A DNA stretch of 64,000 nucleotides, taken from Candidatus Fimousia stercorigallinarum. Its GTDB lineage: Bacteria > Bacillota > Clostridia > Lachnospirales > Lachnospiraceae. Below are positions 49,827-57,328 of the stretch, piece by piece. Under the pieces are notes generated by a model. It did not search any database and had not been told where the DNA came from. It saw nothing but the letters and a program-made list of their open reading frames with translations. The stretch's first letter is position 1. The number at the start of each line of letters is the position of its first letter. The stretch lies in NCBI GenBank assembly GCA_018715775.1, contig DVKZ01000092.1:1-64000 (forward strand), written 5' to 3'. A program made the position numbers and the translations under genes.

Positions 49827-52800
49827 ATGATATGGGATATTTTAGGTATTTCTCCGACAACGGAGGAAGAAGTGATAAAAACAGCATACAGAACAAAATT
49901 GGTGAATGTCAATCCTGAAGACGATCCGGAAGGGTTTAAACAGCTGCGCCAGGCGTACGAACAGGCATGTGCGTGGGCACAGGAAGAAAAAAAGGGAAAA
50001 GGTCCATTAGAGCAATGGATATATGAGGTGGAACAGGTATATGCCGATTTTTACCGCAGGATCGACGAAGAGGAATGGGATGATCTGTTTGACAATGCGG
50101 TCTGCACGGATCTGGATACATTTGAAGAAGCTAGAATTTTGATCCTCCATTTTCTGATGGGACATTATTTTGTCCCGGGCTTTGTTTGGAAAAAGGCATG
50201 GGATGTCTTTGAGATTGACGAGGACCGCGACATGCTGCGGGAAAAAGTTTCGAACGATTTTATCGTCTATATGGAATTTTGCGCACAGGAAAAAGAATAT
50301 TTTGATTATCAGCTTTATGAAGGACCGCCGGATGCCGATTATGACAGTTATATAAAAAAACTATATGTATTTCGGTCGCTGATTGATCAGGAGCGGATGG
50401 AAGAGGCCGGATCGCTTGCAGCAGAGGTGAGAGCTTCGGAGATTTTTCATCCATACGCGAAGGCGGAGCTGATTCGTTATTATTTGTATGCGGGCGTCGA
50501 AGATTGGAAGCCATTATGGCGGGAATTGCAGGACGAGCTCTATGATGATCCGGTTTTAACGGAAATTACCGGCGAGATCCTGATGGAAGAAGGAGATTTT
50601 GAAAAAGCCAGGGAACAGTTTTTGGGTGTTCTGGAAGAGAAGCATACTGCTGTTTATGCAAGCAGAAAGCTTGTGGAATTATATCAAAAGACAGGGGAAT
50701 ATGAAGAAGGGAAAAAGATCTGTCTGAAAGTACTGGATGGAAAGTTTCCGGATGAGAAAATCTGTCAGGAGATGCTCGTGATCAATGAGAAGCTGATCGA
50801 ACAGTGGAAAGATAAAAAAGAGAGACAATTGGATCTTGCCTGGTGTTATTATCAAAATCAGAATTTTGAAGACTGCCTTGCTGTACTGCGTAAAATGAAG
50901 CCGGAAGGGGATGTGGCATTTGATTACTATAATCTTATGGCGCGGATTCTATTAGAAACAGGCAATTTTGAAGAAGGGCTTCAGATGACAAAGATCTGGA
51001 TTTCGAATATAGAACATCTGACCGGCAAAGAAAAAGATTATGACAGAAAGAAGAAGCGATATGGATTTGCGCATTTTATTGCATCTATGCATTGTCTGGA
51101 ACTTGGTATGTCAGAATCGTGTGAAGCGTATTTGAAACGGTCTCTGGAGTTGGACAAAGACTGGACCGATCTGTTGATGTATCGGGAACGGCGGATGTCT
51201 TCTTTTTTAAAGAGAAAAGAGTATGAAGAATGTATCCGGGAAGCAAACAGAGCGATTGAGGAGAGTGAATTTTTTTATCCGGCTTATATCTATCGTCAGG
51301 AAGCCAACTATCATCTTTACCGCATCCAGCAGGTGATCGATGACTTCTATCGTGCCATCGAAATTGATCCGGTGCAGGGAAAACCATATGTGACGGCAGT
51401 AAAAATGCTGCTGGAATTAAATCTGACCGAGGATGTGGAAAAAATTCTGGAAATCGGAAAACATCATCATGTAGAAGATCCGGAATTCAGGTTTTATTTA
51501 TTGGACCATGCAGTATTGCAGGAAAAGCAGCCGGAATCCATGGCAAAACTGGCACAGAAGATGGAAACCATGATGCCGCAGCTGTCCGAAGACAGCGGTC
51601 CTTTCTGTTATCGTCTCGGATTGATCTTTGGCAGGCTGGAAGAAGAACTTCCGGGCAGGAATTATATTAGGACGGCCTTGAAATACGCACAGGAAGCAGT
51701 GGAGAATCATCCGGATGTGATCGAATATGAATGGCTGTTGGCAGATTTGTATAAGAAAAATAGAAATTTTGAGCAGGCGGTCATTTTTTATAAGAAGATT
51801 CTGCAAAAGGATCATACGCTGTATGATGCCTGGATCGATCTCGGATATACCTATGATGAATGTGGGAAAACAGATCAGGCAATTGATGCATTGGAACGGG
51901 CAGCAGAATCTGCCGATCGGCATCCGTATGTGCATAACAGCCTGATGAATCTTTATTTGAAACGGTTTGAAAAGACAAGAGAACGGTCTGATTTTGACCG
52001 GGGGCTTTGGCATGCGGACAGGCAGCTGGAAATTGTAGAAAATGATTATTATTACAGAGAACGGGCCTATTTTTATCTGGAAGATATGCAGTTGGAACCG
52101 GCTCTTGCGGATATTATAAAATCCTATGAACAAAATCCGGAGGATTTGTATGCATTGAGCAGTATGGGATATATTTATTGTCTGCTCGGCGAATATAAAA
52201 AGGCAATCGAGTATTATACTTTGGCAGAAAAAAAGACAGAGACATCAGAGCAGCAGTTTTCGCTGTACCGATGGTGGGGACCGATTTATGAAAGAGACGG
52301 GCAGTTTGAAAAAGCGCTGAGCTGTTATATGAGATGCCTGATGGTCCGGCCGGATTCTCTGGATGCGCTGGAACAGGCGGCAAATATCTTTATGCGCCGG
52401 AATCAGTATGCAGAAGCAGCACGGTATTACGAAAAAGTGATGATGCGGAAAAAGAGAGGCAAGGCCGATCTGATGATCAAGACCGCTAAAGCGTTGCATT
52501 ATGCGAAAAACCGGTTAAAAGAGAAAAAAATACTCAAACAAGTGGAACTGAATTTTGGGCATATACCGGAAGTGAAGTGTCAGCTGGGTGATTACTATCT
52601 GGATGAGAAGCAGGATCTGAAGAAAGCCTACCGGTGTTATATGGATGCGTGCGGATATGATCTGGAAAAGCCATATATTCGTCTTGTTGAAGTATACAGT
52701 CGAATGGGAAAAACGGAAGATGCCATAAAGATGCGACGTCTCGCAGAAAAGAAAATAAAGGAAATTTACGGTTCCATCGGGGATTATTTTCGCATAAAGG

Positions 52801-53078
52801 GAAAGCAAAAGTATATTTACTATCATATTTTCATGATGTATTATTATAATTGGGAGATAGATGCAGCCATGCAGTATCTCCGGGAAATGAAAGAAAGACC
52901 GATGTGCAGTTTTTGTCCGTATGGGTTTTGTTTTGAAGAACTGCTTGCAGAGGCGCGGATTTTGGAGTTTCAGGGTAAAAGAGAGACGGCAATGCGGTTG
53001 TGCAGGAAAATTTTGAGACAAGATCAGAATCTCGGTCAAGTACGTCATTTGATCAAGGAACTGGGAGAGAGACGATAG
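49827..53078 (+). CDS. J-like domain plus large TPR protein, 1083 aa
   Basis: N-terminal MIWDILGISPTTEEEVIKTAYRTKLVNVNPEDDPEGFKQLRQAYEQA resembles a J domain without HPD; multiple TPR-like repeats; next to Hsp70. Confidence 0.8.
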   Translation: MIWDILGISPTTEEEVIKTAYRTKLVNVNPEDDPEGFKQLRQAYEQACAWAQEEKKGKGPLEQWIYEVEQVYADFYRRIDEEEWDDLFDNAVCTDLDTFEEARILILHFLMGHYFVPGFVWKKAWDVFEIDEDRDMLREKVSNDFIVYMEFCAQEKEYFDYQLYEGPPDADYDSYIKKLYVFRSLIDQERMEEAGSLAAEVRASEIFHPYAKAELIRYYLYAGVEDWKPLWRELQDELYDDPVLTEITGEILMEEGDFEKAREQFLGVLEEKHTAVYASRKLVELYQKTGEYEEGKKICLKVLDGKFPDEKICQEMLVINEKLIEQWKDKKERQLDLAWCYYQNQNFEDCLAVLRKMKPEGDVAFDYYNLMARILLETGNFEEGLQMTKIWISNIEHLTGKEKDYDRKKKRYGFAHFIASMHCLELGMSESCEAYLKRSLELDKDWTDLLMYRERRMSSFLKRKEYEECIREANRAIEESEFFYPAYIYRQEANYHLYRIQQVIDDFYRAIEIDPVQGKPYVTAVKMLLELNLTEDVEKILEIGKHHHVEDPEFRFYLLDHAVLQEKQPESMAKLAQKMETMMPQLSEDSGPFCYRLGLIFGRLEEELPGRNYIRTALKYAQEAVENHPDVIEYEWLLADLYKKNRNFEQAVIFYKKILQKDHTLYDAWIDLGYTYDECGKTDQAIDALERAAESADRHPYVHNSLMNLYLKRFEKTRERSDFDRGLWHADRQLEIVENDYYYRERAYFYLEDMQLEPALADIIKSYEQNPEDLYALSSMGYIYCLLGEYKKAIEYYTLAEKKTETSEQQFSLYRWWGPIYERDGQFEKALSCYMRCLMVRPDSLDALEQAANIFMRRNQYAEAARYYEKVMMRKKRGKADLMIKTAKALHYAKNRLKEKKILKQVELNFGHIPEVKCQLGDYYLDEKQDLKKAYRCYMDACGYDLEKPYIRLVEVYSRMGKTEDAIKMRRLAEKKIKEIYGSIGDYFRIKGKQKYIYYHIFMMYYYNWEIDAAMQYLREMKERPMCSFCPYGFCFEELLAEARILEFQGKRETAMRLCRKILRQDQNLGQVRHLIKELGERR

Positions 53079-54767
53079 ATGATCATAGGAATTGATTTAG
53101 GAACAACAAATAGCCTTGCGGCATATTTTACAGAGGATGGACCCCAAATCATCCCCAATCGTCTGGGGAACCATATGACTCCGTCGGTAGTCAGCGTCGA
53201 TGGAGAGCAAGTGTACGTTGGAGAAACTGCGAAAGAACGACAGATTCTATTTCCGGACAGTTCGGCCAGCGTATTTAAAAGAAATATGGGCAGTCAGAAG
53301 GTTTATCAGCTTGACGGAAAACGGTTTACTGCAGAAGAACTATCGTCGTTTGTTCTCAGAAGTCTGAAAGAGGATGCAGAACATTATCTGCAGGAGCCGG
53401 TAAAGGAAGCGGTGATCAGTGTTCCGGCATATTTTAATGAGGCAAGGAGAAAGGCAACGAAACGCGCCGGGGAACTTGCCGGATTGAAAGTGGAAAGGAT
53501 CATCAGCGAGCCGACCGCTGCGGCGATTGCCTATGGGCTGTATCAAAAAAAAGAAAATACAAAATTTCTTGTGTTTGATCTGGGAGGAGGAACTTTTGAT
53601 GTTTCAATCCTGGAGTTATTTCATAATATTTTAGAAGTAAGAGCTGTTGCAGGGGATAACTATCTCGGCGGGGAAGATTTTACAAAAGTGATCCGTGATT
53701 TGTTTTTAAAAGATACCGGGCTGTCAGAGGAAGAACTCGATCACCGGGAACTTGGCCTGTTACGCAAACAGGCAGAACAATGCAAGCTGGCATTTGCGAC
53801 AGAAAGCAGTTTTATGATGAATTGTCAGATCAAAGGAGAAGTAAAAACGGCATTGATCACACGCGGCCGTTTTGAGAAACGGTGCGAACCACTGCTGGAT
53901 CGGATTAAAAAACCTGTAAAGAAAAGCTTGTCTGATGCCAAAATTAAGATTTCAGATATTGATGAGATCGTTTTAGTCGGCGGAGGTACGAAGCTGCGCC
54001 TGGTCAGAAAATATGTAGCTAAATTATTTAAAAAAATGCCGAATACAAGCGTAAACCCGGATGAAGCGGTTGCGCTCGGAGCAGCGATCCAGGCAGCGAT
54101 GAAAGAACGCCGGGAAGCGATCAAAGAAGTAATATTAACCGATGTCTGTCCGTTTACGCTTGGAACCGAAGTCGTAGTGGAGCGAGGAAAAGATAAACAT
54201 GAAGCCGGGTATTTCGCCCCGATCATCGAGCGGAATACAACGATTCCGGCGAGCAGAACGGAGCAGTTCCGCACAGTCTACGATCAGCAGACAAAATTGA
54301 ATATCCACATTTTACAGGGAGAAAGCCGGTTTGCAGCGAATAATATTTCCCTTGGAAATTTGGAAGTCGAAGTTCCGCCGAATAAAGCAGGCGCGGAAGT
54401 GATCGATATTACTTATACATATGATATTAATTCTCTGCTGGAAGTGGAAGTGAAAGTAGTATCGACCGGCGAAATAAAGAAGATGATCATTAAAAATCAG
54501 GAAGTGGATATGACAGATGAGGAAATCGAGGCTCGAATGAAAGAGCTGAGTTATCTGAAGATTCATCCGAAAGATCAGGAAGAGAATCAGCTGCTTTTGC
54601 TTCGTGGAGAACGATTATATGAAGAAAATACCGGAGAAGTGAGATTACGGATCGAATATGAATTAAGGGAATTCGAAAAAGTGCTCAACGAAAGGAATGA
54701 AGTAGAAATCGCCAATGCAAGAAAAGTTCTAAAAGATGTATTGGATGAAATTGATGAAGAGTGGTAA
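53079..54767 (+). CDS. Hsp70 family chaperone, HscC-like
   Basis: IIGIDLGTTNSLAAYFTEDGPQIIPNRLGNHMTPSVVS; VISVPAYFNEARRKATKRAGELAGLKVERIISEPTAAAIAYG; FDLGGGTFDVSILEL; 562 aa. Confidence 0.93.
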   Translation: MIIGIDLGTTNSLAAYFTEDGPQIIPNRLGNHMTPSVVSVDGEQVYVGETAKERQILFPDSSASVFKRNMGSQKVYQLDGKRFTAEELSSFVLRSLKEDAEHYLQEPVKEAVISVPAYFNEARRKATKRAGELAGLKVERIISEPTAAAIAYGLYQKKENTKFLVFDLGGGTFDVSILELFHNILEVRAVAGDNYLGGEDFTKVIRDLFLKDTGLSEEELDHRELGLLRKQAEQCKLAFATESSFMMNCQIKGEVKTALITRGRFEKRCEPLLDRIKKPVKKSLSDAKIKISDIDEIVLVGGGTKLRLVRKYVAKLFKKMPNTSVNPDEAVALGAAIQAAMKERREAIKEVILTDVCPFTLGTEVVVERGKDKHEAGYFAPIIERNTTIPASRTEQFRTVYDQQTKLNIHILQGESRFAANNISLGNLEVEVPPNKAGAEVIDITYTYDINSLLEVEVKVVSTGEIKKMIIKNQEVDMTDEEIEARMKELSYLKIHPKDQEENQLLLLRGERLYEENTGEVRLRIEYELREFEKVLNERNEVEIANARKVLKDVLDEIDEEW

Positions 54768-54809: not shown

Positions 54810-56735
54810 ATGCTGGTAAAGGAATATTTAAAAGCCAGGAAGATGGCAGTCAAAGATTTTCGGATGCGTTCTAGCAGAGGAGAGTATCCATATTTACAGG
54901 TATTAGATGAGATTTTAAAATATGCGGGAACTACAAAAGAGCAGAAATTAGGACTGGTTGATATACCGCTCGATCAGATCGTTGGAACAAAGAGCATGGG
55001 AAGGACCAATGCGTTTGCGAGCAATTTTATGCCGCTAATGGATGAAGAGACAGAGTTTGCTTCTAAGTGGATGAATTTATACAGGGCACATATGGATGAA
55101 GGAATCCGCGATCCGATCGTTGCGTATGAATTTATGAACCATTTTTATGTTGTGGAGGGGAATAAGCGGGTAAGTGTTATGAAATACGTGGATGCAGTCA
55201 GCATTCCCGGAAATGTGACCCGTATCATTCCGCAAAAAAATGATTCGAAAGAGTCTACGATTTATTATGAATTTTTGGATTTTTATGAGATCACCCATAT
55301 TAATTTTATTAACTTTTCCCAGCCGGGCGGTTATAAGAAACTGTTAGAATATGTATGTCCGGACAGCAAAGAACCGTGGGATGATGATATGCAGACGTAT
55401 TTTACTACGGCATACTATCGTTTTGATGATATTTTTCAAGAGCGGGCAGCGGGTAAGAAGATGCCGTTGACAGTTGCCGATGCATTTTTGATCTATCTGG
55501 ATTATTATGGTTATGAGTCGTTTTTGAATAAAAAGCAGAAAGAAATCAAAAGTGAAGTTGCGAAACTCTGGAAAGATTTCATGATCTTCCCGAATAAGCG
55601 ACAGCTGAACTTAAAGATGGATTCGGAAACAATGGATTCTTCGACAGTCATCGACCGTACGATCCATCTGCCGATCACAAAACTGAAAATCGCATTCATT
55701 AACCATAAATCACCGGAAACGTCCAAATGGGTATATATGCATGATCTTGGAAGAAAGCAGATGGAAGAAACGTTTGGCAATAAAGTGTCTGTTCTTGTCT
55801 ATAATGATGTGAATACGACGGCAGCAGGAATTGAAGCGATGGATGAAGCTGTGAAAAAAGGATGCACGTTGATCTTTGTAACGACGCCGAGCCTGATCAA
55901 GGCATGTACATCGATCGCGGTAAAACATCCGAGTGTAAAAATCTTAAACTGTTCTTTGAGTACTTGTTATGGACACATTAAAACGTATTATGGACGGTTA
56001 TATGAGGCCAAGTTCCTGATGGGAATCATTGCCGGCATTATGACAAAATCAAAAAATATCGGATATCTGGCTGATTATCCGATTTCCGGAGCGATCGCGA
56101 ACATTAATGCGTTTGCTTTGGGTGCCAAGATGGTGAATCCGGAAGCGGTCGTTCATCTTCACTGGTATACGAAAAAGGAGATTAATGTCGATGAAAATCT
56201 CTGGGAGGATAAGGTATCGATCGTATCCGGTTATGACAGCCTTATTCCGAACAGTGATGCATTTCGCTTTGGTATTTATGATTTTAATCAGAAAGATACC
56301 CCGCCGCTTGCCATGCCGGTATGGGAATGGGGAATCTTTTATTCCAAGATTGTTGCTTCGGTATTTAATAATACATGGAAGAAGGAAAAGTTGAAATCGG
56401 ATGAAGCGATTAACTATTGGTGGGGAATGTCATCCGGCATGATTGATATCATCGTGTCAGGAACGCTGCCTCCGGAAGTGCGTCATCTGGTCGCAACTTT
56501 AAAATTGGCGATCCAAAAAGGGGTTTTAAATCCGTTTGCGGAAGAAATCCGTGCCCAGGACGGCACGTTAAAAAATAAAGCAGGAGAATCTATGACACCA
56601 TATGACATTATGCAGATGGATTGGCTTGTGGACAATATTAAAGGAGAAATACCATTCCGGGACGAACTGGTGGATGAAGCGAAGACGATCGTTGAGATCC
56701 AGGGAGTTAAGAAGGAAGACAGAAAAACACAATGA
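54810..56735 (+). CDS. Leaderless BMP/PnrA-like ligand-binding protein with N-terminal ParB/Srx-like domain, 641 aa
   Basis: N-terminal VDIPLDQIVGTKSMGRTNAFASNFMPL...DPIVAYEFMNHFYVVEGNKRVSVMKYV; C-terminal WVYMHDLGRKQMEETFGNKV...YYGRLYEAKFLMGIIAGIMTKSKNIGYLADYPISGAIANINAFALGAKMVNPEA; no signal peptide. Confidence 0.82.
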   Translation: MLVKEYLKARKMAVKDFRMRSSRGEYPYLQVLDEILKYAGTTKEQKLGLVDIPLDQIVGTKSMGRTNAFASNFMPLMDEETEFASKWMNLYRAHMDEGIRDPIVAYEFMNHFYVVEGNKRVSVMKYVDAVSIPGNVTRIIPQKNDSKESTIYYEFLDFYEITHINFINFSQPGGYKKLLEYVCPDSKEPWDDDMQTYFTTAYYRFDDIFQERAAGKKMPLTVADAFLIYLDYYGYESFLNKKQKEIKSEVAKLWKDFMIFPNKRQLNLKMDSETMDSSTVIDRTIHLPITKLKIAFINHKSPETSKWVYMHDLGRKQMEETFGNKVSVLVYNDVNTTAAGIEAMDEAVKKGCTLIFVTTPSLIKACTSIAVKHPSVKILNCSLSTCYGHIKTYYGRLYEAKFLMGIIAGIMTKSKNIGYLADYPISGAIANINAFALGAKMVNPEAVVHLHWYTKKEINVDENLWEDKVSIVSGYDSLIPNSDAFRFGIYDFNQKDTPPLAMPVWEWGIFYSKIVASVFNNTWKKEKLKSDEAINYWWGMSSGMIDIIVSGTLPPEVRHLVATLKLAIQKGVLNPFAEEIRAQDGTLKNKAGESMTPYDIMQMDWLVDNIKGEIPFRDELVDEAKTIVEIQGVKKEDRKTQ

Positions 56736-57328
56736 ATATACTAGTTGTAGCAGATGTGGAATCAAAATATCTTTGGGATTATTTTGATTCCTCACAGAAA
56801 GAAAAAGTTGATCTGATCATCTCCTGCGGAGATTTGGATGCGGATTATTTATCGTTTTTAACGACCATGTATAATTGTGATGTATTATATGTACATGGGA
56901 ATCACGATGAAGGATATGAGACAAAACCGCCGGAAGGATGCATCTGCATTGATGATCAGATCATCAATTATCAGGGAATACGGATACTGGGCCTGGGCGG
57001 GTCAATGAGATACAACAATGGGAAGTACCAGTATACGGAAGCGCAGATGCGAATGAGATATATGAGACTCTGGCTGCAGATACAGTTGTGTCGTGGGTTT
57101 GACATTCTGGTCACACATGCACCTGCCAGAGGGATGAACGATGCGGACGATCCTCCGCACCGTGGTTTTGAATGTTTTCACGACCTGATCTCAAAATATA
57201 AACCGGCTTTTTTTCTGCATGGACATGTTCATTTAAATTACGGATATGATATTCCGCGGATAGAGAAGCTTGGAAATACGACCGTGATCAACGGATTTGA
57301 AAAATATCAATTTGAATACAAAATTTAG
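56732..57328 (+). CDS. Metallophosphoesterase family protein with variant first motif
   Basis: ISCGDLDADYL, VHGNHDEG, THAPARG, FLHGHVHLNYG; first motif is ADVES instead of DxH; ATGA overlap with previous gene. Confidence 0.88.
   Translation: MNILVVADVESKYLWDYFDSSQKEKVDLIISCGDLDADYLSFLTTMYNCDVLYVHGNHDEGYETKPPEGCICIDDQIINYQGIRILGLGGSMRYNNGKYQYTEAQMRMRYMRLWLQIQLCRGFDILVTHAPARGMNDADDPPHRGFECFHDLISKYKPAFFLHGHVHLNYGYDIPRIEKLGNTTVINGFEKYQFEYKI

Follow-up and report, generated by a model that had tools for sequence, protein, structure and literature searches.

In the 64,000-nucleotide stretch of contig DVKZ01000092.1 from Candidatus Fimousia stercorigallinarum analysed here (hereafter the window), an intact open reading frame (54810..56735, + strand) encodes a 641-aa protein that joins an N-terminal half with a predicted ParB/Srx fold to a C-terminal BMP half of the PnrA/AtzT type. 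By computation, the ParB/Srx-fold domain and the cytoplasmic BMP domain are established as a fixed fusion, and the metallophosphoesterase encoded next to it is established as its obligate partner. Because the fusion was never found without this enzyme, they probably work together as a sensing or signalling module inside the cell. The fusion is previously undescribed. We found no paper on a BMP-ParB fusion in the literature, and the main text of a 2025 survey of ParB-CTPase-fold fusions (PMC12704722) makes no mention of BMP, substrate-binding, periplasmic-binding or metallophosphoesterase partners.

The BMP domain (residues ~290-615; 55677..56654, +) was delimited by Pfam, PDB search, Foldseek and mapping of its pocket, which is remodelled. 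Pfam Bmp (PF02608) matches residues 293-453 with E 5.2e-15 and 55.7 bits against a cut-off of 24.1, and is the sole Pfam domain found in the fusion. In a phmmer search of the PDB, the nearest solved proteins to this half were the purine-binding solute-binding proteins 3s99 from Brucella (E 4.1e-38) and AtzT (6pi5; E 3e-34), aligned over residues ~280-615. These matches bear out the BMP/PnrA-like domain claimed in a preliminary description of this DNA, as does the Foldseek comparison it had proposed for the C-terminal part, which recovered a BMP fold (TM-scores by target of 0.78-0.81 to AtzT and 3s99, with sequence similarity across the whole domain). Unlike these two proteins, however, the fusion is predicted to be cytoplasmic, is joined to a ParB-fold domain and lacks a transporter. 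The BMP fold is also tied to regulation by name in B. halodurans Med (2hqb), called an activator of comK in the PDB, although the sequence similarity of Med to the fusion is weak (E 0.36) and it has no ParB-like domain.

The prediction of a cytoplasmic location comes from the N-terminus. No lipobox or hydrophobic N-terminus was detected in any of 81 fusions (maximum 13-aa Kyte-Doolittle value 1.53); the N-terminus is hydrophobic in all 10 plain BMP proteins examined from the same bacterial family (minimum 2.12). The start is conserved among relatives (M...Y.KA.K.G.K) and thus, taken with the absence of these features from all 81 homologues, a mis-called start hiding a signal peptide could be ruled out. 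Cysteine content was uninformative as a sign of cytoplasmic location, plain BMPs being equally rich. Furthermore, the ORF list contains no ABC permease or ATPase near the fusion, no permease is a conserved neighbour across loci, and no other BMP protein is encoded in its own genome (87% complete). The earlier reading of a protein with neither signal peptide nor lipobox, without an adjacent ABC permease and outside any transporter therefore stands, on the N-termini of the 81 fusions, the ORF list and the neighbour survey.

The guanine ligand of AtzT is held by Tyr45, Trp194, Ser97, Glu165, Asn218, Asn220 and the Phe98 backbone (PMC6834077). When these positions were mapped onto the 81 fusions, the stacking aromatic was found to be kept, with Trp (W307) at the Tyr45 position in every one; the Asn220 position is kept as Asp (D476) in 72, and the Ser97 position is Thr or Ser in 71. 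By contrast with AtzT, Glu165 is replaced by Gly (Gly427) in 79 and Trp194 by Lys (Lys456) in 71, although the latter position adjoins a gap and its assignment is less certain (the invariant Trp452 is an alternative equivalent in the phmmer alignment), and loops are shortened. Glu and Trp are kept at these two positions in 10/10 plain BMPs. W307, D476, K401 and many other residues of the BMP domain are invariant or nearly so in the fusions. Judged from these residues, the pocket is constrained but rebuilt. As the purine/guanine site has been rebuilt, a purine ligand cannot be assumed, and the pocket may instead take some other metabolite of the cytoplasm, perhaps an anionic one.

The N-terminal half has no direct match in Pfam, NCBIfam or phage-protein profile libraries, the last of which gave no match to the fusion as a whole. 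An AlphaFold2 model of residues 1-292, made with 70 homologues as input, has a mean pLDDT of 89.6. Its best solved structures by Foldseek are Noc (E 5.6e-5), ParB (E 1.1e-4), KorB and sulfiredoxin (E 7.4e-4), all with probabilities of 0.97-1.0, followed by SbnI and SerK. The ParB/Srx-like nucleotide-fold domain occupies residues ~41-162 (54930..55295, +), with strands at 41-53, 103-108, 111-116 and 131-141 and a helix at 147-162. A helical region (residues ~173-259; 55326..55586, +) includes a G.Y.kLL helix common to stand-alone ParB/DUF4032-like proteins and contains no recognisable HTH.

These stand-alone proteins, most of them ~320 aa, were found in other classes by a phylum-wide search with residues 1-292, and are closest in sequence to the N-terminal half (L034-L047; 25-34% identity, E down to 2.5e-12). 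Their sequences contain VDGNHRVAAA or near variants; the best of them matches ParB_N weakly (E 0.006, 17 bits against a cut-off of 26.3), and several also match DUF4032 and 4Fe-4S families. In hhalign comparisons, the fusion profile aligned with that of the stand-alone relatives (98.6%, E 9e-16) and theirs with that of ParB (84.7%, E 7e-6), the C motif (GIRDPI / GIIQPL) and the P motif (EGNKR / AGERR) staying in register along the chain; neither was matched by the BMP half, which served as control. Compared directly with ParB, the fusion profile aligns in register but only weakly (2% probability, E 0.023), and homology to ParB rests on the stand-alone intermediates and on the fold. The model and the profile homology together support a ParB/Srx fold for the N-terminal half. 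Because AlphaFold, Foldseek and the profile chain agree, the ParB/Srx domain suggested in the preliminary description was correctly called at fold level, and the fold appeared at the N-terminus in the structure prediction it had named as a check; Pfam ParB_N (PF02195) itself does not match the fusion. The stand-alone ParB-fold/DUF4032-like proteins from other classes of the phylum (L034-L039, L041-L044, L046 and L047), several of which have C-terminal 4Fe-4S motifs, represent another uncharacterised ParB-fold architecture; we found no literature on DUF4032.

The C-motif (Box I) equivalent, GIRDPIVA (residues 98-105; 55101..55124, +), is in register with GIIQPLIV of ParB in hhalign. In the P-motif (Box II) equivalent, EGNKRVSVMK (residues 116-125; 55155..55184, +), E116, G117, K119 and R120 are invariant among 70 aligned homologues. 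GNKR (residues 117-120) falls at the place of ParB GERR and Srx GCHR, in line with its earlier identification as a signature resembling G-N-x-R. The fusion therefore shares its fold, the positions of both motifs and GxxR with the ParB-CTPase-fold proteins ParB, Noc and KorB, but differs from them in having GNKR rather than GERR, no recognisable Box III, no Pfam/NCBIfam match to an HTH or a C-terminal dimerisation domain, and no parA among the neighbours of its loci. Sulfiredoxin, SerK and SbnI have the compact fold in common with it; however, the catalytic Cys of sulfiredoxin GCHR is absent, and the DGHxR-type motif of these proteins has become EGNKR. The stand-alone relatives, for their part, lack a BMP domain and have DGNHR or DGHHR at this place.

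According to the 2025 survey, ParB-CTPase-fold domains can bind CTP, ATP or GTP, and mutating the GxxR arginine abolishes NTP binding in those that bind NTPs (PMC12704722). Since this phosphate motif is invariant in the fusions (G117 and R120, n=70 sequences), NTP binding by the ParB-like half appears likely. Two points count against an NTP switch, namely the lack of a recognisable Box III in the fusion and, again from the survey, the finding that 17 of 28 purified ParB-fold proteins bound no NTP and 11 bound one (PMC12704722). The intracellular nucleoside or nucleotide sensor proposed earlier is thus upheld in part: its intracellular location stands; a nucleoside ligand is not supported, given the changes at AtzT Glu165 and Trp194; and the ParB-like half, with its invariant GxxR, is the more plausible place for a nucleotide.

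The fusion is widespread among gut Clostridia. It was present in 77 of 200 sampled genomes of the source's family, Lachnospiraceae, and in a class-wide sample it occurred in 27 genomes from 10 families of the class Clostridia (f1, f130, f144, f145, f161, f163, f174, f178, f180 and f181), always as an open frame of ~630-680 aa. At least 578 relatives are present in the genome collection, among them Roseburia, Anaerostipes, Blautia, Dorea and Gemmiger records. Within the class, we saw no N-terminal half without a BMP domain.

The partner, a calcineurin-like metallophosphoesterase of 198 aa (56732..57328, +), was identified from Pfam (Metallophos, 2.7e-9), neighbourhood, co-occurrence and motifs. 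Its start overlaps the fusion stop (ATGA) in the window, and it is the only conserved neighbour, lying downstream in 78 of 80 loci with a median gap of 8 bp as counted by tblastn (antisense ORFs mask it in an ORF-based count, which gave 74/81). Both genes were found in 77 of the 200 family genomes and neither in the other 123, with no genome carrying one alone (Fisher p 2e-57, a value that ignores phylogeny, and co-occurrence is no proof of contact). The class-wide sample gave 27 genomes with both, none with the fusion only and 3 with the phosphoesterase only. As the two samples share four genomes, the fusion is present in 100 different genomes in total, and each of these has the phosphoesterase. 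Linkage has been lost in G013, G044 and G109, yet both genes are retained there, and in several families (f130, f144, f145 and f181) the two genes are neighbours but converge. GD, GNHD, H129 and GHxH are conserved in essentially all 74 phosphoesterases compared; motif I, usually DxH, is DxE in 65 and has P, K or R in the 9 others. The closest solved relative, MPPED2, is a weak match (E 0.007). This partner, the strongest functional clue, had been missed in the preliminary description.

Several further observations concern the pair and its surroundings. Of the two proteins, only the phosphoesterase has a match in the defence library, to the PADLOC candidate family PDC-S10 (E 3e-18); nothing beyond this match supports a defence role, and PDC-S10 was not found in literature text. 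In a genome with 6% contamination, a second, decayed fusion copy (G005:C25:1079-3210) lies beside a decayed phosphoesterase fragment, which may reflect joint duplication or transfer of the two genes. Just upstream of the fusion in the window (49827-54767) are genes for a J-domain/TPR protein (1083 aa) and then an Hsp70-type chaperone (562 aa; PF00012, E 1e-135). A functional link to these genes was ruled out because the arrangement is not conserved in 80 loci, and no upstream neighbour of any kind is. No riboswitch or known RNA was found near the gene in 8 loci. By eye, a promoter-like CTTGATTTC...TATAAT of sigma-A type lies upstream of many fusion genes (L065, L072, L076, L109, L123 and L126).

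We propose, as a tentative reading that we rate as nearly an even call, a two-gene cytoplasmic module made up of a ligand-responsive NTP-binding regulator and a dedicated phosphoesterase. The BMP-type clamshell would bind a small cytoplasmic ligand, the ParB/Srx-like fold would bind a nucleoside triphosphate, and the state of the fusion would be set by ligand-driven closure of the clamshell together with NTP binding or hydrolysis. As its output, the fusion would control the co-encoded metallophosphoesterase or act jointly with it, through physical or regulatory coupling, and the enzyme would break a phosphodiester or phosphomonoester linked to the BMP ligand. Two features of the enzyme count against this model. 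One is the missing usual histidine of motif I; the other is the presence of the phosphoesterase without the fusion in three genomes (L203 in G571, L204 in G701 and L205 in G725, with absence of the fusion rechecked using a second query), which indicates that it can act alone.

The same obligate partner would also suit a reversal cycle, in which the BMP domain selects a metabolite, the ParB/Srx-like domain phosphorylates it as a SerK/SbnI-like kinase, and the metallophosphoesterase undoes that step. Foldseek matches to SerK (5x0g) and SbnI (5ujd) agree with such a kinase/phosphatase pair, as does the SerK NCBIfam model being the best weak match of one stand-alone relative (E 1.7e-4). We nevertheless consider it unlikely, given that the D-G-H-x-R type motif is E-G-N-K-R in the fusion and that ParB and Noc score better than SerK in Foldseek; in addition, the region of the SerK catalytic Glu would presumably fall at an insertion in the fusion, which also counts against it. 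We give about the same low weight to a fusion that is only a scaffold, with neither half binding a small ligand any longer and the protein serving to chaperone the phosphoesterase or to support it structurally. The loss of two purine-contact residues, the unrecognisable ParB motif and the enzyme's presence in every genome with the fusion would fit this role, but the pocket residues of a pure scaffold would be expected to go without a common pattern, whereas W307, D476, K401 and many other BMP residues are invariant or nearly so and E116, G117, K119 and R120 are invariant.

Less probable again is a role on DNA, in which the fusion would act as a ParB-like clamp or a DNA-bound regulator and the BMP ligand would govern its loading. 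Foldseek alignments to Noc, KorB and ParB span ~230 columns and reach the helical region, where the G.Y.kLL helix aligns by hhalign with the ParB helix that precedes the HTH; however, rmsd values of 14-19 A in these long alignments mean that the helical part is not superposed, Pfam and NCBIfam find neither an HTH nor a C-terminal dimerisation domain, and there is neither a parA nor a conserved upstream neighbour. Finally, the genuine BMP domain is what would be seen if the start were mis-called and the protein were an ordinary BMP lipoprotein serving a nucleoside ABC transporter, but this reading is very improbable, as the N-terminal half is conserved in every homologue, none of the 81 has a signal peptide, the pocket is altered, and there is no adjoining permease and no other BMP in the genome.

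A more specific and more doubtful form of the two-gene module would be a previously undescribed means of intracellular signalling in gut Clostridia: a ParB-fold NTP switch, gated by a ligand and bearing a captured solute-binding domain, would control a dedicated phosphodiesterase whose substrate would be a messenger or metabolite of nucleotide type. Solute-binding domains join the partners of the ParB fold through the fusion, whose obligate phosphoesterase offers a concrete enzymatic output. The fusion is common in abundant gut bacteria, where its BMP domain probably leads to its annotation as a transport protein.
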